DNA from: Natranaerobius thermophilus JW/NM-WN-LF | GTDB taxonomy: Bacteria > Bacillota > Natranaerobiia > Natranaerobiales > Natranaerobiaceae | NCBI RefSeq assembly: GCF_000020005.1 | Contig: NC_010718.1 | Location: 2,748,001 to 2,812,000 of the forward strand | Length of the DNA stretch: 64,000 nt | Direction of reading: 5' to 3' | Shown here: piece by piece, positions 27,418-39,285 of the stretch | Position numbering within the stretch: the first letter of the stretch is position 1 | Layout: each line of letters opens with the position of its first letter | The notes under the pieces: model-generated | What the model saw: only the letters and a program-made list of their open reading frames with translations | What the model was told of the DNA's origin: nothing | Database searches by the model: none | Made by a program: the position numbers and the translations under genes

Positions 27418-29994
27418 TTATTCTATATCCACGACAGTAGGCAAATCAGCATTAACAGGTAGTAGTTTTCCCCAGAAATATTCACCGTCTATTTCAGACA
27501 CAGCGGCTTCAACTTCTCCCGAGGAAGTCTCCAGTATTACACTATCGACATCTTCTTCAAATATCCATGAGTAATGAAAATAATATTCTGAGACACTTTG
27601 GTACTTAGAACCAACTCTTCCGGAAAAAGTCTTCTCAGGATCTACCTCTTCATGATGAGTTAATTCGTGTCGAGATAATTGAAAACCTCCATTTTCCAGT
27701 TCTATCATAGCTACTTTAAGATTATCATTTGACTGATACACAAATAAATCACCTTCATCGTAGGATTTTGTCAATTCTATATTCATATCATCGTCGTCAA
27801 GAAAATCAATAATTTCTAAGGTACTTCCTTCCTCGACACCAATTGGGTTATCTGCCAAATTCAGGTCCTCTAAATTATCCATCTCTTCTAAAGCTTGATA
27901 GTCACTGATACGGTTATCACTTAAATGTAGAACATTTAGATCGTCTAAGTTTTCAAGAGGTGTGAAGTCATGGATTTCATTTTCGTTAGCATGAAGTGAA
28001 CCTAAATTTGTCAGTCCTTCTATATAAGATAAATCTTCAATTTGAAGATTATCTATCGCTAGTGTGCTTAACTCTTCTAGTTCAGCCAAAGCAGATAGAT
28101 CGTCAATGGGATTGGAATTTAAAATAAGGGTATTTAAACCATCTAAACTCTCTATACTAGATATATCTTGAATCCCATTTTGAGCTATTGATAACAGGCT
28201 TAAGTTCTCCAGGTTTTGAAGTGGAGATATATCTGTGATGTGATTTTTGTTCATAATCAACCAGGTCAATTTGGGAAAATTACTGGCTATCTGCTCCACA
28301 TTTTCATCATCCAAATTAGTTTCAGTTAAGAACAACATCGATAAATTTTCATTTCCAAACAAGGGAGAAAGATCGTCTATTTCAGCCCCATAAAAGCCTA
28401 CTGAAGATAAGTTTTCCAGATCTTCTAATGGTGATAAGTCAGTGATTTGATCGCCATGCAGGTGAAGCACCTCTAGATTTGAAGCATATTCAAGGCCCGT
28501 AAGGTCTTCTGGATACTCATCTTCCTTTGGGGAATCATCTTCTGGGGAATCATCTTCCTCTAGATTCTCATCTTTCTCTACATTCTCATCTTCCCCTAGG
28601 GAGTCATCCACCCGCGGGGGCTCATCCTTCTTTAGATTCTCATCTTCATATGATTCTGGAATATTTAATCGTGTCAGCTCTTTCATATCTGCTTTGGTGA
28701 TATCTTCCCCATCTTCAATCTCAAGTTCTTCTCGAATTTGCTTTTCTAGCACTTCATCGGGTATTGGTACAGTATCATCGGCATCTAAACCATCTGATGG
28801 TCCCGATAATCCTATACAACCTGTCAGAACAATTAAGCTTATGGCAATGACAGAAAGCTTAACTGTAGGCCTTTTAAAGTTTGAAATCATTTTAACTCTC
28901 CTCACTAAATCAGATTTGTTATTTGCTATTCCCGTAGTACCAGGTAAAGTTTTCTGGTTGGCAATACCATTTAATACATTAAGAATGGTATGACCGTACT
29001 GCTTTCTCTCTTGGGAGTTCAAATAATACATGACATATTCATCACAGGCGAATTCGCAGTCTCTTCTCATTTTAGAAAAAGCATACCAAATCACCGGGTT
29101 AAACCAATGTAAAATTTGTAGGATAGTGCTCACCCATATAATAGCCACATCTTTTTGTTTAATATGGGATAGTTCGTGCAAAATAATATATTCAATCTCT
29201 TCGTTTGAAAGATATTCAGTTAAATTTTCAGGTAATACGAGTTTAGGTTTTGATACACCCAAAACAAAAGGAGTTTTGATTGAATTAGTAGATATAACTT
29301 TTATCTCACCCTGAAAACCCAATTTTGTTTTACTTTTATTTACAATCTCCATAATATTTTTATCAGTGGCAACTTCATGCTTTTTAATATTGTATTTAAG
29401 CTTGTAGTAAGAAAATACAAAAATACCACTGAACACTAGAACACCTAACAGCCAAATGCGGCTGATTTCTTCAAATCCTAAGCTAAAAATCCTTGTGATA
29501 CTGTTGCTGTTTATGCTAATACTGCTGCTACTGCTGTCACTACCTCTATGTACTTCATCTTGGTGAACGCCTGGAGATGAGTCCTTCTCGCCCTGTTCTT
29601 TACTGCTTAAATCACTGCCACTGGCCAGATCTCTGCCACTACTCAGATCTTCATCTGTACTCTCGGTTTCAGGTGATTGTTCTTGCACATCTACTCCCGG
29701 GGCCTGGGAAGAGTCAGAATCAGCTTGTTCAAGAAGTTCATTTAGTGAAAGTGTTTCTATATTTTCTGTATGATAATGTTCTTGAACAAAGGGTAGATAA
29801 TTATATATACTGACAGATGCTTCAGGGGCAACGGGAATTAACAATCTTATAATCAGTAGCATCCAAATAAAATAATGCCAGCGAGGGGTCAGTACCCTAC
29901 CAAAGAAAAATTTGATCAATAAAATTAGACCTGTAACCACAATTCCCATAAGTGACAGTGTGATAATGATAGAAAATATATCAACTGCATTCAT
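27418..29994 (-). CDS. BlaR1/MecR1-type M56 peptidase fused to leucine-rich repeats
   Basis: 858 residues. Residues ~1-400 form a BlaR1-like antirepressor: membrane helices at 10-30, 37-55, ~190-208 and ~385, and zinc peptidase motif HELSH near 273 with the distal CEFACDEYVMYY. A hydrophilic segment at ~95-160 is Ser/Asp-rich. After the last helix, instead of a penicillin-binding sensor, comes an acidic repeat linker (EDENVEKDENLEEDDSPED) and then about eight internalin-like LRR units (~500-730; LEVLHLHGDQITDLSPLEDL), with a beta-rich tail. Start 1 bp after the blaI stop: same operon. Family knowledge: BlaR1 peptidases cleave BlaI on signal. Here the LRR ectodomain is the inferred sensor. Confidence 0.85.
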   Translation of the reverse strand: MNAVDIFSIIITLSLMGIVVTGLILLIKFFFGRVLTPRWHYFIWMLLIIRLLIPVAPEASVSIYNYLPFVQEHYHTENIETLSLNELLEQADSDSSQAPGVDVQEQSPETESTDEDLSSGRDLASGSDLSSKEQGEKDSSPGVHQDEVHRGSDSSSSSISINSNSITRIFSLGFEEISRIWLLGVLVFSGIFVFSYYKLKYNIKKHEVATDKNIMEIVNKSKTKLGFQGEIKVISTNSIKTPFVLGVSKPKLVLPENLTEYLSNEEIEYIILHELSHIKQKDVAIIWVSTILQILHWFNPVIWYAFSKMRRDCEFACDEYVMYYLNSQERKQYGHTILNVLNGIANQKTLPGTTGIANNKSDLVRRVKMISNFKRPTVKLSVIAISLIVLTGCIGLSGPSDGLDADDTVPIPDEVLEKQIREELEIEDGEDITKADMKELTRLNIPESYEDENLKKDEPPRVDDSLGEDENVEKDENLEEDDSPEDDSPKEDEYPEDLTGLEYASNLEVLHLHGDQITDLSPLEDLENLSSVGFYGAEIDDLSPLFGNENLSMLFLTETNLDDENVEQIASNFPKLTWLIMNKNHITDISPLQNLENLSLLSIAQNGIQDISSIESLDGLNTLILNSNPIDDLSALAELEELSTLAIDNLQIEDLSYIEGLTNLGSLHANENEIHDFTPLENLDDLNVLHLSDNRISDYQALEEMDNLEDLNLADNPIGVEEGSTLEIIDFLDDDDMNIELTKSYDEGDLFVYQSNDNLKVAMIELENGGFQLSRHELTHHEEVDPEKTFSGRVGSKYQSVSEYYFHYSWIFEEDVDSVILETSSGEVEAAVSEIDGEYFWGKLLPVNADLPTVVDIE

Positions 29995-29995
29995 A

Positions 29996-30505
29996 TCAAT
30001 TTCCCCCTAGCTCATCATGGCCTTTATGCCCTTCACACTCATCATGGCGGTCAGCACCTTTACAATCATCATGTCCTTCATACACAACATGACCATTTTG
30101 GTCTTTACTGTTATCCTCTCGGGCTTCACCCTCTGTATCGTCATCCAAAAGTTTTTTAAGTTCATTTATCTCTTGTTGTGATAATCTGTCCTGTTTAATA
30201 AAGTTTGCCACTAACATAGAAACTGATCCATTATATACTTTTTCTAAAAAAGTTTCTGTTTCCGTAAGCCTACACTCCTCTTTCGACAGCAAAGGATAGT
30301 ACAAGTAACGTGTAGTATTTTTCTCTACCCCAACAACACCTTTTTTTACTAATCTACTAATCAAGGTGTGAATAGTCTTGGGTTTCCAGTCTGTTTGAGG
30401 TTGTAATCTTTCTATAATAGCACTAGAAGGGATTGGGGAATCATCCCACAAAACCTCCATGACTTCCCATTCGGAATCGGATATTTTATTAGTTTTTTTA
30501 ACCAC
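29996..30505 (-). CDS. BlaI/MecI-family repressor with His/Asp-rich tail
   Basis: 169 residues from a GTG behind AGGAGGGG. Residues 8-120 form the Penicillinase_R winged helix (ISDSEWEVMEVLWDDSPIPS; KTIHTLISRLVKKGVVG). BlaI dimers bind TACA/TGTA dyads and are cleaved by the BlaR1 peptidase encoded next. Oddity: the last ~45 residues are an added hydrophilic tail rich in His, Asp, Gly and Cys (EGHDDCKGADRHDECEGHKG), encoded by a short DNA repeat. Such a tail could bind metal, but may only be a repeat expansion. Confidence 0.88.
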   Translation of the reverse strand: MVKKTNKISDSEWEVMEVLWDDSPIPSSAIIERLQPQTDWKPKTIHTLISRLVKKGVVGVEKNTTRYLYYPLLSKEECRLTETETFLEKVYNGSVSMLVANFIKQDRLSQQEINELKKLLDDDTEGEAREDNSKDQNGHVVYEGHDDCKGADRHDECEGHKGHDELGGN

Positions 30506-30965: not shown

Positions 30966-31814
30966 ATGTCACAAGATCAGCTGGAATACGAACTAGAAAA
31001 TTGCCAGAAGTACTACTTTGATTTTGAAAATTTGAAATGGCTTATTAAGCTACTGTATAAATTCCGCCAAGATTTAAAAATAGAACACAATTGCAAAGAA
31101 ACACCAGCCAAACTAAACAATATACAAATTTCTCTAACAGACCTAATAAGTACTGTAGAGCAAATTGTAAAACAGATTAAAGCAGAACAAAAAAATCGGT
31201 TACTAACCAAAGATATCAATATCTGGTTAACAGATTTGAAAACTGTATTATCTTCCTATCAGGAACACGTAAAACTCAATGAGATTGGAGAACTGATAAG
31301 CAAAGTCAATCAACAATTTCCAGCTAAAAGGGATTTCACCAATTTAATCCTAATTTTTTCTTTTTCTACTCTATTGGAATTAAAAAATATAAGAAATATC
31401 ATAGCTGGTTTTAGTACAGCAGATTGGCAAAATGGTCACGGTTACTGCCCTATCTGTCTTAATAAGCCACACTACGGATTACTCAGGTCCAAAGACGGCA
31501 AAAAGATGTTGGAATGTTGGTTGTGTAGTATGCAATGGGAATTCCCGAGACTTAAGTGCCCTTATTGCAAAAACGAAAACCAAAATCAACTAGGATTATT
31601 TACTTTTGTTAGAGATGACTTGTGTCGAGTTCAGTTTTGCGAAAATTGTTTTAGTTATCACAAAGTCTTCGATTTGCGCAAATCGGGATCTGTATTTTTG
31701 TTGGAAATGCACAATTTCGCCAGTTTAACTCACGATTTGTATGCTGAAAAGGAAGGTTTTCAACCGGGTTCAGGACTTAGCTGGGTCAATGAAGGAGATT
31801 TAATTAACACCTAA
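30966..31814 (+). CDS. fdhE: Formate dehydrogenase accessory protein FdhE
   Basis: 282 residues. The C-terminal half has paired CxxC zinc/iron motifs: CPICLNKPHYG, then CWLCSMQW, CPYCKNEN and CENCFSYH. This is the FdhE pattern (rubredoxin-like sites); the N-terminal 160 residues are helical. FdhE is a maturation factor needed for Tat-exported, respiratory-type formate dehydrogenases. It is the first gene of the operon, with AAGGGGGGAG before the ATG, 23 bp before fdhA. The family match is clear; the N-terminal half is divergent. Confidence 0.85.
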   Translation: MSQDQLEYELENCQKYYFDFENLKWLIKLLYKFRQDLKIEHNCKETPAKLNNIQISLTDLISTVEQIVKQIKAEQKNRLLTKDINIWLTDLKTVLSSYQEHVKLNEIGELISKVNQQFPAKRDFTNLILIFSFSTLLELKNIRNIIAGFSTADWQNGHGYCPICLNKPHYGLLRSKDGKKMLECWLCSMQWEFPRLKCPYCKNENQNQLGLFTFVRDDLCRVQFCENCFSYHKVFDLRKSGSVFLLEMHNFASLTHDLYAEKEGFQPGSGLSWVNEGDLINT

Positions 31815-31837
31815 TTTTCTAAGGAGGTGACCGAAAT

Positions 31838-34819
31838 TTGGGCTTAACCCGTCGTGATTTTTTCAAAGTTACTGGAGTCTCCGTCACCGCTGCCTCTTTA
31901 ACGTCCATGGGAGTCAAAAAAGTTCATGGTTCATACCAACCAGTTAGAATAAATTACGCTAAGGAGATCACTACTATCTGTCCATTTTGCTCAGTTGGTT
32001 GTGGAATCATTTGCCATGTACAAGACGGCAAACTTTTAAATACCGAAGGAGATCCTGACCATCCCATTAATGAAGGCACACTATGCAGTAAAGGTGCAGC
32101 ACTTTTCAATATGGTAAACACTTATGATGAAAAAGGTAGCATTGTGCCAAATCCTGAAAGACTCACGAAAGTAAAATACAGACCTCCCAACAGCGGAGAA
32201 TGGAAGGAACTCAGTTGGGAAGAAGCTCTTGATAAAATTGCAGACAGAATCAAACAAACCAGAGACAATACTTTTGAGCAACAAGATGAAAACGGTGTGA
32301 CAGTAAACAGAACTAAAGCTATAGCACATTTGGGAAGTGCAATGTGTAATAATGAAGAAAATTATCTCTACCACAAGTTAATCAGGGCTTTGGGGGTAAT
32401 TAATATCGATCACTGCGCCCGCCTTTGACACTCTTCTACGGTCGCCGGACTCGGCGCCACGTTTGGAAGAGGTGCTATGACTAATCACTGGATTGATTAT
32501 CAGCACTCAGATGTCTTTATGAATATCGGGCTCAACACAGCCGAAAATCATCCTGTATCCATGAAATGGATCGATAAAGCTAGGCAGGAAAAAGGAGCTA
32601 AATTAATCTGTGTAGACCCTAGAATCACCAGAACAGCAGCCGTCGCTGACATCTATGCTCCTATTCGTCCTGGTACCAATACTGCTTTTTTAGCAGGGCT
32701 TATTAATTACGCCCTAGCAAATGAATATTATCACGAAGAATACGTGAAACATTACACTAATGCCTCTTATCTAATTAAAGAAGAGTTTAGTTTTGAAGAC
32801 GGTATGTTTACTTCCCCAGAAGAGGTAAATGGCGACTATTACCAGCGAAATGAAAACGGAGAGATTATAACAGATCCTGATTTAGAAGATCCCAATTGTG
32901 TCTTTCAATTACTAAAGGATCATTATCAAAGATACGATTTAGACACTGTCAGCGAGATCACAGGTTGTCCGAAAGATAGTTTGAAGGAAGTGGCTAAAAC
33001 ATTTTGCAGCACTGGTGAACCTGCTAAAGCTGGTAATATCATGTACGCCATGGGTATCACCCAGTTTACTCACGGAGCTCAAAATGTACGCAGTATAGCT
33101 ATACTGCAGCTATTACTTGGCAATATGGGAATTGCCGGAGGTGGAGTGAACGCCCAGAGAGGTCAGTCTAATGTGCAGGGCTCTACTGATATGGCCATGC
33201 TATATCACATCATCCCTGGTTATATGGGAACTCCCTCGGCACAGCTCCATCCTACTTTTGAAGATTATAAGGAACAGGAAACTCCGGATTCTGGTTACTG
33301 GGAAAACACTCCCAAATTCATTACAAGTATGTTAAAAGCTTTTTGGGGTGATTACGCCACAGCAGGAAACGACTATTGTTATGATTTCATGCCGAAGTTA
33401 GATGAAAAAGACAGATCTCATATCGGTATGTTCAGAGAAATGGCCGAAGGTAATGTAGAAGGGATGATATGTTGGGCCGATAACCCCGCCGTAAGTGGCC
33501 CTTCTACAGCTCACAAACGGGATTACATGGGTAAGCTTAAATGGATGGTATCTATCGATATTTTTGAAAATGAAACTGCCGCCTTCTGGAAGGCTCCAGG
33601 AGTTGATCCCGAAGAAATCGATACAGAAGTTTTCTTACTGCCCGCGGCATTACACGTAGAAAGGGAAGGTTCTATAAGTAATAGCGGTCGATGGATTCAA
33701 TGGCGCAATAAGGCAGTAAATCCACCGGGAGAAGCGAAATCCGACTTGGAAATAGTAGATCTAATCTACAAAAATATCAAATCAAAATACGAAGCTGAAA
33801 ATGGAGTGTTTCCAGAGCCCATATTGAATTTAAATTGGGACTACGGCGAACCCGCAGATCCTGAAACAGTAGCGAAAGAGATCAATGGCTTTAATACTAT
33901 AACTGGTGAACTGATAGAAAACTTCACCCACTTACAAAGTAATGGCAGCACTGCTTCGGGGAATTGGTTATACTGCGGATATTATAATGATCACAACGCT
34001 CCTCCTACAAAGAGAAGACATAGAGAAGTTCAGGGAATTGGACTTCATCCCGACTGGTCTTTTGCATGGCCTCTTAATAGGAGAGTGATTTACAATCGTT
34101 GTGCTGCCGATCCAAAAGGTAAACCTTGGAATCCAGAAACACCTTTAGTATGGTACGAAAATGGTCAGTGGAAAACCAATGATGTCCCCGATTTCAATAC
34201 CGATGTTCCGCCGGAAGATACAGCCAATACACCTTTTATCATGCTCCCCGAAGGTCAAGGTAGACTTTTTGGTAATGTAGCTTTAGTTGATGGACCTTTC
34301 CCTGAACATTATGAACCTTGGGAAAGTCCAGTGGAAAATATTATGTCGTCAACACAGTTTAATCCCCATGTCACAGAATGGTATCCCGATCAGAGAGCAG
34401 AGATAGATAGTGAAGAATATCCCTACATTGCCACAAGTTACAGAATTACTGAGCACTATCAAACCGGCATGATGACTAGGAATATGCCATGGCTTTACGA
34501 AACTATGCCTGATATATTCGTTGAAATTAGTAAAAGTTTAGCAGATAAACTTGGTATAACAAAAGGTGAATCAGTGGAAGTGATTACCCCCAGGGGCAAA
34601 TATCAAGCCGGAACGTGTATAACTAATAGAATCAGGCCAATTCAAGTTAATGGTAGGAAATTAGAGATGGTGGGATTATTGTGGCACTGGGGTTATCAGG
34701 GAGCGGCAAAAGGAGCTGTGGCCAACGATGTTTCACCTTCAATCGGAGATGCAAACACCACCATCCCTGAATACAAAGCTTTTCTGTGTAATATAAGGAA
34801 GGTGAATAACTATGACTAA
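31838..34819 (+). CDS. fdhA: Selenocysteine formate dehydrogenase, catalytic subunit (Tat-exported)
   Basis: 993 residues read through an in-frame UGA at 32426-32428 (residue 197, ...HCARL-Sec-HSSTVAG), exactly where formate dehydrogenases carry selenocysteine. Start TTG behind AAGGAGGTG. The N-terminus is a twin-arginine signal (TRRDFFK), so it acts outside the membrane. A 4Fe-4S site is formed by Cys 48, 51, 55 and 83. The rest is the molybdopterin (bis-MGD) oxidoreductase fold, with the dinucleotide-binding C-terminal domain (GESVEVITPRGKY; WHWGYQG). Reaction: formate to CO2 plus two electrons. It overlaps fdhB by 8 bp. The UGA is not a pseudogene sign: both sides are highly conserved and stay in frame. 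Confidence 0.95.
32429..32462 (+). promoter_or_regulatory. Putative SECIS hairpin
   Basis: Immediately after the UGA. CGCCG (32443-32447) pairs with CGGCG (32452-32456) around a GACT tip; ACG (32438) pairs with CGT (32460) below an internal loop. The position 10-35 bases downstream of the UGA is right for a bacterial SECIS bound by SelB. Confidence 0.75.
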
Positions 34820-35639
34820 AAGCATGTTGATAGATACATCTAAATGTACTGCTTGCAGAGCCTGTCAAATTGCTTGTAAACAATGGAATCAACTTCCTGC
34901 AGAAAAGACCAGTTTCACCGGTAGTTATGAAAACCCTACCAGTATCTCACCTGTAACTTGGACCAGAATTGTCTTCCAGGAGCAGGAAAACCCCAATAAT
35001 TCAGCTGGGATTAGCTGGTACTTCTCAAAACAAGGGTGCATGCACTGTACAGATGCCGGTTGTTTGACAGTATGTCCAACTGGTGCAATTTATCGAACTG
35101 AATCGGGTACTGTTAATGTTGATTTTGACAGATGTATAGGTTGTAATTACTGTGCTGCCAATTGCCCCTTTAATGTTATAAGTTTCGACCGCAGGACTAA
35201 TGTTCCTCCTAAATGTACTTTCTGCCACGACAGAATGGTCAATGGATATCAACCTGCATGTGCCAGCGTCTGTCCATCCAATGCAATTATTTACGGTGAA
35301 CGACGTGATGTTATCAATACCGCCTTTAATAGAGTTAATCATTTAATAGAAAATGGCAATCCTAAAGCCAGGGTTTATGGAGTAGATGAACTAGATGGCA
35401 TGGGCATGATCTATGTATTAGAAAATGAGCCCGAATACTACGGTTTCCCGAAAGAACCGGCTGTATCTACTTCGGCTAAAATTTGGGGCGCTATTTTCAG
35501 TCCTTTTAGATTATTAATTGCAATACTAGTTAGTTTAGGGGTTCTAGCAAATAAATCAGAATATAACAAAGTAAATAGAGCTAAACAGCAAAAAGAAAAG
35601 CGCAATTCTGACAAAGAAGATCAGGGGGTGACAAAATGA
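34812..35639 (+). CDS. fdhB: Formate dehydrogenase iron-sulfur subunit with C-terminal membrane helix
   Basis: 275 residues. Four 4Fe-4S motifs: Cys 12/15/18/22 (CTACRACQIAC), then CMHCTDAGCLTVCP, CIGCNYCAANCP and CTFCHDRMVNGYQPAC. This is the FdnH/FdhB four-cluster electron wire. A hydrophobic helix near 228-248 (FRLLIAILVSLGVLA) anchors the C-terminus, with a charged tail after it. Overlaps fdhA upstream and rnfC downstream (ATGA). It should carry electrons from the catalytic subunit to the membrane; in place of a cytochrome b subunit the next genes are RnfC- and RnfD-like. Confidence 0.93.
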   Translation: MTKSMLIDTSKCTACRACQIACKQWNQLPAEKTSFTGSYENPTSISPVTWTRIVFQEQENPNNSAGISWYFSKQGCMHCTDAGCLTVCPTGAIYRTESGTVNVDFDRCIGCNYCAANCPFNVISFDRRTNVPPKCTFCHDRMVNGYQPACASVCPSNAIIYGERRDVINTAFNRVNHLIENGNPKARVYGVDELDGMGMIYVLENEPEYYGFPKEPAVSTSAKIWGAIFSPFRLLIAILVSLGVLANKSEYNKVNRAKQQKEKRNSDKEDQGVTK

Positions 35640-36958
35640 ATGTAAAATCCATAATTGGCGGAGCCTACCTTCCCCATTGTAAAGAATACACTGAAGAGCA
35701 CAACATAAAAGACATCTCACTTCCAAAAGAAGTAGTAGTACCCCTCATTCAACACGTAGGTGCTCCCTGTAAACCTTTAGTGAGCGTAGGAGACAAAGTA
35801 ACCATGGGACAAAAGATAGGTGATAGTGAAGAATACATTAGTGCCCCCGTCCACGCCAGTGTAAATGGCACTGTCAAGGCCATAGAAAAACGTCCCGGTG
35901 TGGAAGGATATGATGAAGACAGTATAGTGATATCCACTGATTTCGATAAAGAAGAACCTGAGTTTTACACTAAGAATGATCCCGATAAATTATCAGACGA
36001 AGAATTAAAAGAACTGCTAAAAGATTCAGGCATAGCTGGTATGGGAGGAGCTGCTTTCCCAACCTATGTTAATGTAAATCAGTCACAGCCCATTGAATAT
36101 CTGCTTTTAAATGGGGCTGAATGTGAACCCTACTTAACTTGTGATCATCGTCAAATGATTGAAATGCCTGAAAAACTAATCAAAGGTGCAGAGATACTAA
36201 TGCGCATCATAGGTGCTAAAAAATGTTATATCGGAATAGAAACTAATAAACCCGATGCCATAGAAGTTCTATCTGAACAAACTAAAGAATTAGAAAATAT
36301 GGAAGTGGTCCCCCTAGCCTCCAAGTATCCACAGGGCTACAAATCTCATTTAATAAATGCTATTACTGACCGCAAAGTACCTCGAGGGGCTAGATCAGCG
36401 GAACTCGGATGCATTGTTAGAAATGTAGGCACTACAATCGCTGTGTACGAAGCTGTGGTGTACGAAAAGCCACTAATTGAGCGAGTAGTAACTGTATCGG
36501 GGCCAAAAATACCTCAACCGGGCAATTTTTCAATTCGCATCGGCACCCCAATATCTCATATCCTAGAACAGTGTGAAATTGAAGACATAAGCACTTTGGA
36601 AGGATGTAAAGTTATTTTAGGGGGACCCATGACGGGAATGAGCCAGTACTCTGTTCAAGCGCCCATTGTCAAAAATAGCACTGGCTTATTGGTTTTTCCG
36701 CCGGAAATGTTACCGGAATGGGATTATCACAATTGTGTGAAATGCGGTGATTGTGTAGCTCATTGCCCTATGTATCTGTATCCCAATAAATTGAGTATTT
36801 TTGCAGAGGCCGAAATGTACCGAGAAGCAGAAGATTGGGATATTATGGACTGTATTGAATGCGGATTATGTGTGTATCAATGTCCGTCTAACAGGCCCAT
36901 TGTCCAATTTATTAAGCAAGTGAAACCAGTTATCAAAAAAATGCAGAGAAGTAGATAA
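35636..36958 (+). CDS. rnfC: RnfC-like NADH/quinone-oxidoreductase-type subunit
   Basis: 440 residues, the core length of clostridial RnfC. The N-terminus has a biotinyl-lipoyl-like fold (GDKVTMGQKIGDSEEYISAP). GMGGAAFPTYVN near residue 134 is the Gly-rich NADH/FMN-binding loop shared with the 51-kDa complex I subunit. Two 4Fe-4S motifs lie near 367 and 405 (CVKCGDCVAHCP; CIECGLCVYQCP). RnfC is the cytoplasmic peripheral subunit that exchanges electrons with NAD. It is coupled to fdhB by an ATGA overlap. No rnfA, B, E or G follows, unlike normal Rnf loci. Confidence 0.9.
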   Translation: MNVKSIIGGAYLPHCKEYTEEHNIKDISLPKEVVVPLIQHVGAPCKPLVSVGDKVTMGQKIGDSEEYISAPVHASVNGTVKAIEKRPGVEGYDEDSIVISTDFDKEEPEFYTKNDPDKLSDEELKELLKDSGIAGMGGAAFPTYVNVNQSQPIEYLLLNGAECEPYLTCDHRQMIEMPEKLIKGAEILMRIIGAKKCYIGIETNKPDAIEVLSEQTKELENMEVVPLASKYPQGYKSHLINAITDRKVPRGARSAELGCIVRNVGTTIAVYEAVVYEKPLIERVVTVSGPKIPQPGNFSIRIGTPISHILEQCEIEDISTLEGCKVILGGPMTGMSQYSVQAPIVKNSTGLLVFPPEMLPEWDYHNCVKCGDCVAHCPMYLYPNKLSIFAEAEMYREAEDWDIMDCIECGLCVYQCPSNRPIVQFIKQVKPVIKKMQRSR

Positions 36959-36992
36959 TTGAAAATATTGCATACGAAAGGGGGAAATGATT

Positions 36993-37985
36993 TTGGCTGA
37001 ACCTCGGCTTGTGGTAGACTCTTCGCCACACCTTAGAAGTAAAAAAACTGTTTCTGTTGCTATGTTTGATGTGATGATCGCTTTAATACCCATAGTTTTG
37101 GTTTCGATATATTTCTATCAACAGCATGCCATATTTACCATAGCTGTCTGTATGATAACTGCAGTTTTAACAGAACTGATCGTACGTAAACTGACAAACC
37201 GCCAGCCCACTCTTAATGATGGAAGTGCCTTGTTAACGGGATTATTCGTAGCACTTTTATTTTCTGGAACTGTTGCTGTTTGGACCGCAATCTTGGCAAC
37301 TGTGCTAGCCATTGGCGTGGCCAAAGAATTTGTGGGAGGTTTAGGATGGAATTTATTTAATCCCGCAATTTTCGGTAGAAGTATGATTATTATCTTGTCA
37401 CCGCTATTTCTATGGTTAAATGATTTGTTCGCAGATATATATGTAGATCTAGGACCAGTAGATGTAATGACTCAAGCAACTCCCCTGGCAATGTTGCAAG
37501 GGGGTATGGAGATGCCTTCTTATTGGGAAATGCTTGTGGCGTTTCCAGGAGGGGCATTGTCGGAAACTTCGCCTTTAGCGCTATTAATCGGTGGGATTTA
37601 CCTACTTTATCGTGGGCACATAAATTGGAGAATTCCTGTATCGGTTATCGGTACAGTTGTAGTACTCTCACTAATCGCTGGTGCAGATCCTATGTACCAA
37701 GTGCTTAGTGGCGGAATAATGATCGGAGCATTCTTCATGGCTACCGACTGGGTGACTAGTCCCATTAACAACAAGGGAAAAATTATATTTGGAATTGCCA
37801 TCGGTGCATTAACGATTCTATTTAGATTAGGACTTGGAGCTACAGAAGGTGTCGCATTTTCCATTTTAATCATGAACGCCTTTGTGCCATTAATTGATAA
37901 GAAAACTAAACATCCATCCTTTAGTGAACCAGAACCTATAAAACAAACCACTAAAGAACACGGAAAAACAGTAGCTGAATCCTAA
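36993..37985 (+). CDS. rnfD: RnfD-like membrane subunit
   Basis: 330 residues from the TTG at 36993, which is 8 bases from GGGGG; an ATG at 36987 is too close to that site. About nine to ten membrane helices. The sequence TQATPLA near residue 163 corresponds to the Thr that carries covalent FMN in RnfD/NqrB. RnfD forms part of the ion-translocating channel with RnfA/E/G in full complexes. It is the last gene of the fdhE-fdhA-fdhB-rnfC-rnfD operon and is followed by a strong terminator, so the other Rnf subunits are genuinely absent here. They could be elsewhere in the genome. Confidence 0.88.
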   Translation: MAEPRLVVDSSPHLRSKKTVSVAMFDVMIALIPIVLVSIYFYQQHAIFTIAVCMITAVLTELIVRKLTNRQPTLNDGSALLTGLFVALLFSGTVAVWTAILATVLAIGVAKEFVGGLGWNLFNPAIFGRSMIIILSPLFLWLNDLFADIYVDLGPVDVMTQATPLAMLQGGMEMPSYWEMLVAFPGGALSETSPLALLIGGIYLLYRGHINWRIPVSVIGTVVVLSLIAGADPMYQVLSGGIMIGAFFMATDWVTSPINNKGKIIFGIAIGALTILFRLGLGATEGVAFSILIMNAFVPLIDKKTKHPSFSEPEPIKQTTKEHGKTVAES

Positions 37986-38015
37986 ATATATATTTTCCAA
38001 TTTCTCATTTGATAA

Positions 38016-38061
38016 GGGGCTGCCCCAAAAGTGATAATTTTTGGGGTGCTGCCCTTTTTTT
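38016..38061 (+). terminator. Terminator of the formate dehydrogenase/Rnf operon
   Basis: GCCCCAAAA pairs with TTTTGGGG, and the outer GGG(C) with GCCC; then seven Ts. It ends the operon that begins at 30966 and stops just before the convergent WG-repeat gene. Confidence 0.9.
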
Positions 38062-38070
38062 AAATATTTT

Positions 38071-39285
38071 CTATTTGTTTATTTCAATAAACCCAATCTT
38101 TTCATCTATAAAAACGCTTGCTTTACCTTCCGAAATTCGTCCTAACGCTACTTCGGAGTCTAATTTAAATTTTATATCGCCATCTAGATCATATACAATC
38201 CACTGTTCGTCTGTTGTTCTTACCTGAATTAATTCTTCACCTTCTTTATAGGGCCATGCCATTTCGTAGTCGGGCTCTATAATAAATTCACCTTTTTTGT
38301 TTATAAAACCCCATTTTCCTTCTGTTGATTTATTTCTTGCAACTCCGTCCTTAAAATGATCTGATGAATCCGACTCAAGTTTGAATATATATTCACCGCT
38401 TTCATCAATAAATCCGTATTCGCCTTTCATGTTTGTAGCAGGAGCTATACCACCTTTAAAATTACTAATGGATTTAAACTCGGGTTCTATCACATATTCT
38501 CCGGATTTATCTATAACTCCCCACAATTCAACTTCTTCTTTTACATTTTCTTCTTTCTCCACTAAATTTTTAATACCAACTGGTACAATTCCATCAGAGA
38601 ATGACCTAGCACTATCAAATTTAGGCTCTATAACATACTCTCCCTCTTTATTAATAAAACCATACTTCCCTTCTTCTTTACATTGAACTTTAGCTAGTCC
38701 CTCAGAAAACAGAGAAACAGAATCGAATTTAAGATCTATAACAATATCACCATCTCGGTTAGTAAATCCTGCGCCTTTATCAAAGTCAGAAACACCTATC
38801 ATATCACCTGAACCAACCCAGATAAAATCATATGTGGGCTCTATAACATAATCACCTTGCTTATTAATAACTCCTTTTTTGCCATCAAGTTCAATCTTTG
38901 CTAAACCATTTTTAAAATCATGGGCATTATCGTATTTTGGTTCAACTAAATACTCCCCTTCTTCATTTATATAACCCCATTTATCATCTAATTTAACTGC
39001 ACCAAATCCCTCTGAAAAGGAACTCGCGTCATCAAATTTTAGTTCAACTATTTCTTTCCCTTCTCCATCAATATAACCATAAGTATTATCAATACCTACC
39101 ATAGCATAACCATCTGAAAACCAATCGGCTTCATCGTATTTTGGTTCAACTACAAAGTTTAAATCTTCTTTTTGTTTTACTAAATCATCACCGTTTTCTT
39201 CTATAGGTTTTTCTTCTACTTCTTCCGTACCACAACCCATAGAAAGCAAAGTTGTTAATATAACCAAAATAAATAAACGTTTCAT
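38071..39285 (-). CDS. WG-repeat lipoprotein
   Basis: 404 residues. Signal peptide with lipobox SMGC (Cys 18). The mature part is about ten repeats of the WG/KWG type (KWGYINEEGEYLVEPKYDNA and variants: GFINKEGEYVIEP, FSDGIVPV). WG repeats form beta-propeller-like surface domains with a presumed binding role. Lipid-anchored outside the cell, acidic, single gene with its own CAAGGAG ribosome-binding site. Partner unknown. Confidence 0.88.
   Translation of the reverse strand: MKRLFILVILTTLLSMGCGTEEVEEKPIEENGDDLVKQKEDLNFVVEPKYDEADWFSDGYAMVGIDNTYGYIDGEGKEIVELKFDDASSFSEGFGAVKLDDKWGYINEEGEYLVEPKYDNAHDFKNGLAKIELDGKKGVINKQGDYVIEPTYDFIWVGSGDMIGVSDFDKGAGFTNRDGDIVIDLKFDSVSLFSEGLAKVQCKEEGKYGFINKEGEYVIEPKFDSARSFSDGIVPVGIKNLVEKEENVKEEVELWGVIDKSGEYVIEPEFKSISNFKGGIAPATNMKGEYGFIDESGEYIFKLESDSSDHFKDGVARNKSTEGKWGFINKKGEFIIEPDYEMAWPYKEGEELIQVRTTDEQWIVYDLDGDIKFKLDSEVALGRISEGKASVFIDEKIGFIEINK

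Follow-up and report, generated by a model that had tools for sequence, protein, structure and literature searches.

How does an exported formate dehydrogenase (FDH) dispose of its electrons when its operon offers two Rnf subunits instead of a cytochrome? This question is raised by a locus of Natranaerobius thermophilus JW/NM-WN-LF, which we analysed within a stretch of 64,000 nucleotides (positions 2,748,001 to 2,812,000 of NC_010718.1; hereafter the window, whose numbering is used unless stated otherwise). Exported FDHs and their molybdoenzyme relatives are normally thought to need a quinone pool together with a cytochrome b or NrfD anchor. Positions 30966-38061 comprise an operon, fdhE-fdhA-fdhB-rnfC-rnfD, plus a terminator, with all five genes on the + strand as proposed in a preliminary description of this DNA. 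Inspection of the window revealed no rnfG, rnfE, rnfA, rnfB or cytochrome b gene in the operon. We infer that FdhA and FdhB likely join RnfC and RnfD in one complex, FdhAB-RnfCD, acting as a quinone-free transmembrane formate:NAD+ (nicotinamide adenine dinucleotide) oxidoreductase; the inference extends to NAD as partner, to the direction of electron flow and to the absence of ion pumping.

We begin with the outer half of this putative complex. The fdhA gene (31838-34819, TTG start) encodes a catalytic subunit of the FdnG type with 993 residues, which matched TIGR01553 with 1152 bits (cut-off 814) and carries a twin-arginine translocation (Tat) signal, RRDFFK, at its N-terminus. A Tat motif is also present in 45 of 48 FdhA relatives with a called N-terminus, the remaining three being start-call or TGA-split artefacts. 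The in-frame TGA for selenocysteine (32426-32428, codon 197) occupies the FDH active-site position and recurs at the same place in ~35 related loci, and a tRNA-Sec scored over threshold in the host genome. Directly 3' of this codon lies a hairpin (32426-32470) resembling a bacterial selenocysteine insertion sequence (SECIS). Since its fold is weak when judged from the single sequence (-21.6 kcal/mol, z -1.7), a test on an alignment was needed: 24 sequences revealed compensatory changes, with three of five pairs altered on both sides, and none of 500 shuffles scored as high. Signal, family match, TGA, tRNA-Sec and SECIS covariation together bear out the exported selenocysteine enzyme originally proposed. 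The fdhB gene (34812-35639) encodes an iron-sulfur subunit that lacks a signal peptide of its own. Its best family is TIGR01582, yet with a score under the cut-off (210 vs 335 bits). Sixteen cysteines, accounting for four 4Fe-4S sites, are invariant across 34 relatives, and the AlphaFold model, whose nearest fold is Escherichia coli FdnH (1kqf_B), contains a C-terminal helix at residues 220-271 (19-residue hydropathy 2.2), in line with the four-cluster subunit with a C-terminal helix described before. The same organism encodes a second selenocysteine FDH, cytosolic and located beside NuoE/NuoF-like subunits (L140:3207-5888), which is probably a soluble NAD- or ferredoxin-linked enzyme.

The genes are tightly packed: fdhA and fdhB overlap by 8 nucleotides (nt), fdhB and rnfC (35636-36958) by 4 nt, and rnfD (36987-37985) follows after 28 nt. 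RnfC matched TIGR01945 with 494 bits (cut-off 246) and keeps the flavin mononucleotide (FMN)/NAD site and both 4Fe-4S sites. RnfD, a multi-span membrane subunit predicted to carry flavin, matched TIGR01946 with 269 bits (cut-off 207), and its model resembles RnfD 9eri_D with a template modelling score of 0.82. A gene for the ApbE flavin transferase is present.

Is this arrangement peculiar to one genome? A scan of GTDB genomes with a profile of RnfD from such 'lone' pairs, that is rnfC-rnfD apart from the other rnf genes, matched 370 relatives. The 79 loci examined comprised five full rnf operons and 74 lone pairs. An exported iron-sulfur and/or catalytic subunit adjoins rnfC-rnfD in 66 of the latter; of the remaining eight, seven are truncated at a contig end, and the last, on a Dethiobacter contig (L134:7899-11008), holds rnfG-rnfC-rnfD only, without rnfE/A/B or a molybdoenzyme. 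The preliminary description had named expression of further rnf genes with the operon as what would overturn it: rnfE, rnfA or rnfB adjoin none of the 74 lone loci and rnfG a single one. Likewise, among 398 genomes of the phylum, six of seven strong RnfC matches proved to be of the lone type on inspection, host genome included. Dozens of genomes contain the order fdhE-fdhA-fdhB-rnfC-rnfD or the permutation rnfC-rnfD-fdhA-fdhB, which is the recurrence that the earlier proposal to search for fdhB with rnfC-rnfD had looked for, and it is far beyond chance. The existence of two gene orders indicates that the linkage has been kept through rearrangement. Carriers are mostly Bacillota, many from soda lakes, with some Actinomycetota and Dehalococcoidia. 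Sequences labelled Thioalkalivibrio, Desulfovibrio and Hydrogenedentota sit within Bacillota branches and may represent binning errors.

The partner enzyme varies. It is of the FDH-N type in 42 of the 74 lone loci, mostly with selenocysteine and in a few with an unsplit frame, and a PhsA-like molybdoenzyme in ~11, those tested scoring below the PhsA family cut-off. Two loci (L090:8597-14695 and L092:8551-14709) continue from rnfC-rnfD to a Tat-signal iron-sulfur protein and the small and large subunits of an exported [NiFe] hydrogenase. In two further loci, from Natronincola peptidivorans (L131:6893-9976) and a relative (L128:4553-7591), RnfC forms the C-terminal part of a fusion of 1012-1027 residues with an A6-like [FeFe] hydrogenase, adjoining rnfD, an iron-sulfur subunit and a PhsA-like molybdoenzyme. 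The fused RnfC has lost the FMN motif (GMGGAAFPT changed to GIGISHLPA) and retains both 4Fe-4S motifs. Judged from these sequences, the fusion fits a flow in which electrons would leave RnfD via the RnfC clusters to whichever cytosolic site is attached, and the two loci possibly encode a system leading from an outer donor to H2. Could RnfC in N. thermophilus then donate to a cytosolic partner other than NAD, such as ferredoxin, either exclusively or alongside NAD? The eroded FMN/NAD site of the two fusions would allow for this, as would the use of RnfC-type subunits by other enzymes, e.g. RnfC2 of the Acetobacterium woodii methylene-tetrahydrofolate (THF) reductase as cited in PMC6895022. However, 69 unfused lone RnfC sequences show little or no variation in the FMN/NAD motif and ECEP and none in the eight cluster cysteines, and by established potentials the reduction of ferredoxin with formate would be unfavourable when it has to work against the membrane potential, making this alternative improbable. 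The idea of a new respiratory module thus finds support, although it was drawn too narrowly, missing the other molybdoenzymes, the [NiFe] hydrogenases, the hydrogenase-RnfC fusion and carriers without detectable quinone synthesis genes. We lean towards a general role in which RnfC-RnfD form an interchangeable, quinone-independent membrane bridge; on one side it would meet the cytosolic NAD(H) pool or, where fused, a hydrogenase, and on the other exported FDHs, sulfur-type molybdoenzymes and [NiFe] hydrogenases.

It is also conceivable that the genes are merely co-transcribed, with FdhAB delivering electrons elsewhere and RnfCD serving another task. Two loci in which rnfC-rnfD and an iron-sulfur protein occur without a catalytic subunit close by (L052 and L053) would agree with this, and so would an orphan set in the host genome. 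There, a second lone rnfC-rnfD pair at 560.6-563.9 kb (L007:6633-9883, G000:C2:560632-563882) follows a gene for a four-cluster iron-sulfur protein that has a Tat signal and a C-terminal helix, again without a catalytic subunit. Yet the tight fdhB/rnfC overlap, the linkage conserved in both gene orders and the exchange of the catalytic subunit while iron-sulfur subunit, RnfC and RnfD stay together speak against independent tasks. Moreover, no other anchor or quinone route was detected: among 34 carrier genomes MenD exceeded the cut-off in none, NrfD was found in none, MqnA/D (PF02621) matched one weakly and cytochrome b (PF01292) matched two, the latter two families being absent from the host genome. 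MenD matches below the cut-off in 29 of these genomes (22-101 bits, cut-off 244) were not counted, as they are probably other thiamine-diphosphate enzymes. As most carriers are metagenome-assembled genomes (MAGs), each single absence is weak, but the whole set and the complete host genome are not. Uptake of quinones from outside is possible. Overall, co-transcription without contact appears very improbable. Elsewhere in the host genome, at 665 kb, a Tat-exported molybdoenzyme with B subunit and chaperone lacks a visible anchor (L137:7168-11265); it might use the second lone rnfC-rnfD pair.

A further alternative emerges from the other rnf genes of the host. Its genome (3,191,453 bases, chromosome 3,165,557 bases) contains four complete copies each of rnfC and rnfD, which include those of two full rnfCDGEAB operons at 524 kb and 1,142 kb. 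Hence the lack of rnfA, B, E and G noted at the outset holds for the operon and not for the genome. In addition, a decayed rnf operon (L010:7300-9677, ~G000:C2:675.3-677.7 kb) displays rnfD pieces with stops, an rnfG-like frame and an rnfA fragment. Lone RnfC and RnfD might thus join the housekeeping RnfG/E/A/B to form a hybrid, a formate-fed and ion-pumping Rnf, an option favoured by the presence of full operons, by RnfA/E in nearly all carriers and by the retention of all known cofactor residues: of 81 lone sequences, 77 have T and four have S at the position of T165, the FMN residue of RnfD. We nevertheless regard the hybrid as unlikely. Apart from the lack of rnfE/A/B beside any lone locus, the lone proteins fall into clades of their own, RnfD with 81 rows apart from 25 full-Rnf rows (Shimodaira-Hasegawa-like approximate likelihood ratio test, SH-aLRT, 100) and RnfC with 69 rows apart from 24 (SH-aLRT 90). 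The RnfC of the operon shares 60-61% identity with the other lone copy and 42-44% with the two full-Rnf copies. The five full-Rnf loci carrying the scan pattern fall outside the lone clade; the remaining full-Rnf sequences came from separate searches. Two residues invariant in lone RnfD, E114 and W255, set it apart from full-Rnf RnfD; W255 also occurs in 7 of 25 full-Rnf sequences. The stretch from the NPA motif to the flavin threonine is longer: it spans 38 residues in 59 of 81 lone sequences, whereas in full Rnf its median is 32 and its commonest length 29. By the published topology this threonine faces the outer side, placing the longer stretch near the docking place of RnfG, which is also where FdhB is expected. 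Finally, RnfD tracks FdhB, and a ferredoxin:NAD core would be superfluous where RnfC is fused to a hydrogenase or where hydrogenases or PhsA-like enzymes are the partners.

Several points weigh against an independent FdhAB-RnfCD complex. The distance correlation of RnfD with FdhB, the highest among ten protein pairs (r=0.80), partly reflects shared inheritance, and the loci were found by the lone-RnfD signature, which biases sampling to the lone clade. Many lone loci are MAG contigs, some with host labels that look like binning errors. The module is known here from genes and single-protein models alone, and NAD as the inner partner is suggested by conserved residues only. Above all, 47 of 50 carrier genomes yielded a strong RnfA/E match, nearly always as a pair. 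Because nearly all carriers thus have RnfA/E, hybrids with RnfGEAB are possible, and the absence of RnfA/E failed as proof of independence: of the other three genomes one shows no RnfA/E and two have fragments only, but all three are possibly incomplete MAGs.

A full Rnf operon whose missing genes lie farther downstream is ruled out, as the next gene is on the opposite strand. The operon ends with a rho-independent terminator (38014-38061), the hairpin of which reaches -25.7 kcal/mol (z -4.4, 0/200 shuffles) and is followed by seven T residues. This call rests on a separate fold, since the promoter/terminator scan performed at chance level overall. At its 5' end the operon starts with fdhE (30966-31814), encoding an FdhE-like accessory protein of 282 residues. 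Its matches are weak, with TIGR01562 as the best family (44.9 bits, below cut-off) and PF24859 just under cut-off, although fdhE adjoins fdhA in many relatives. Convergent with the operon, a lipoprotein-like WG-repeat protein (PF14903, six stretches) is encoded at 38071-39285 on the - strand. Upstream, 27418-30505 on the - strand encode a BlaI-type repressor (PF03965) and an M56 BlaR1-type sensor protease, which carries leucine-rich repeats in its C-terminal part in place of a penicillin sensor.

How would FdhAB-RnfCD work? In Rnf, electrons pass from RnfB through RnfA-E and RnfG to the FMN and riboflavin of RnfD, and on via the two 4Fe-4S clusters and FMN of RnfC to NAD+, and the order FdhB-RnfD-RnfC-NAD envisaged for this locus matches the second half of this path (PMC12174285). 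FdhA would be exported by Tat with FdhB carried along, so that both reside on the outer face, FdhB being held by its C-terminal helix. Electrons could then run from FdhA (Mo or W, selenocysteine, 4Fe-4S) through the four clusters of FdhB to RnfD, with FdhB replacing RnfG as outer partner. The flavins of RnfD would carry them through the membrane to RnfC and NAD(H) inside. As two charges cross per formate, formate oxidation would build membrane potential, which would be spent when NADH drives the reverse reaction, the reduction of CO2 to formate on the outside. The suggestion that entry of Na+ or H+ is coupled to NAD reduction finds no support, given that inward electrons already build potential and the RnfA-E pair is absent from the operon. 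In A. woodii, this pair has reportedly been proposed as the Na+ carrier. Ion entry is hence not needed; ion movement is still conceivable in view of the retained gate phenylalanine of RnfD, but unsupported.

Operation in either direction, also anticipated in the preliminary description, is supported as possible, and formate level and membrane potential would set the direction. N. thermophilus produces acetate and formate, maintains a potential of -99 to -138 mV and keeps the pH of its cytoplasm ~1 unit below that of the medium (PMC2764116). Assuming 1 M bicarbonate, an NADH/NAD ratio of 0.1, -124 mV and textbook potentials, we computed a rough switch point of ~0.3 mM formate, above which oxidation with NAD+ is favourable and below which the reverse is. 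With neutral pH, 50 mM bicarbonate and -150 mV, the calculation favoured outward flow throughout the tested formate range, which extended to 100 mM. According to these estimates, syntrophs could use the module to dispose of NADH electrons as exported formate, and alkaliphiles could use it to gain energy from formate when this is abundant.

FdhAB-RnfCD combines traits of known systems. With the Rnf complex (RnfABCDGE, ferredoxin:NAD+ oxidoreductase) it shares full-length homology of RnfC and RnfD and the branch from FMN and riboflavin via 4Fe-4S and FMN to NAD; it differs in that RnfA, E, G and B are encoded in other operons only, FdhB would be the outer donor, and the complex would not be a ferredoxin enzyme and is no demonstrated ion pump. 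With formate dehydrogenase-N (FdnGHI) it shares the selenocysteine subunit, Tat export and a four-cluster beta subunit with the FdnH fold and C-terminal helix, whereas RnfD-RnfC and NAD(H) would replace the cytochrome b subunit FdnI and quinone. Similarly, complex iron-sulfur molybdoenzymes with NrfD/PsrC anchors have a catalytic A and a four-cluster B subunit facing outward, but rely on a quinone anchor. The Nqr/Rnf-like two-subunit flavinylated systems also use half of Nqr/Rnf for one-way transfer between NAD(P)H and the outside; they fuse an RnfD-like domain that lost the flavin threonine to an NqrF-type domain (PF00175) and have an RnfG/NqrC-like flavoprotein partner (PMC8238504, PMC10979944). 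In the operon, in contrast, RnfD is unfused, RnfC is separate and the probable NAD subunit, no RnfG-like gene occurs, the threonine is kept in most lone RnfD and an iron-sulfur subunit would act as outer partner. Of these two sources, the one from 2021 mentions neither RnfC nor formate in its main text, and the preprint does not mention formate. In Thermacetogenium phaeum, an exported FDH was proposed to make the partner's formate by reverse electron transport, but with menaquinone and a gamma subunit and in the absence of Rnf (PMC6895022). The A. woodii RnfC2, postulated as NADH-binding subunit according to a citation in the same paper, would likewise be an RnfC-type protein that serves as an NADH module apart from Rnf. 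Unlike FdhAB-RnfCD, this methylene-THF reductase is reportedly cytosolic and without RnfD. In the open-licence literature we found no description of RnfC-RnfD paired with an exported FDH. For a soda-lake syntroph, rnfC, rnfD, two rnfG and an exported FDH were listed and not linked together (Timmers 2018, PMC6295475), and Haloacetibacter (PMC12835891) has a normal Rnf plus an RnfC beside methylene-THF reductase, which is a different arrangement from FdhAB-RnfCD.

Taken together, half of an Rnf complex appears to offer a widespread and hitherto undescribed connection between chemistry outside the cell and NADH that needs no quinones. If so, RnfC-RnfD would be a new membrane anchor for the exported FDH/molybdoenzyme superfamily and a natural minimal Rnf: with RnfA-E and RnfG out of the picture, the inward branch would be accessible to study by itself, as a test of where ions move in Rnf. 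Standard family models label the lone genes as parts of RnfABCDGE, which invites wrong inferences about energy conservation. A general RnfC-RnfD bridge would conserve or spend membrane potential by electron movement alone and, run outward, could drive formation of formate or H2 outside the cell from NADH in alkaliphilic and syntrophic anaerobes. Thus, fermenting and syntrophic anaerobes, many of them from soda lakes, would possess a route to exchange NADH with extracellular formate or H2.

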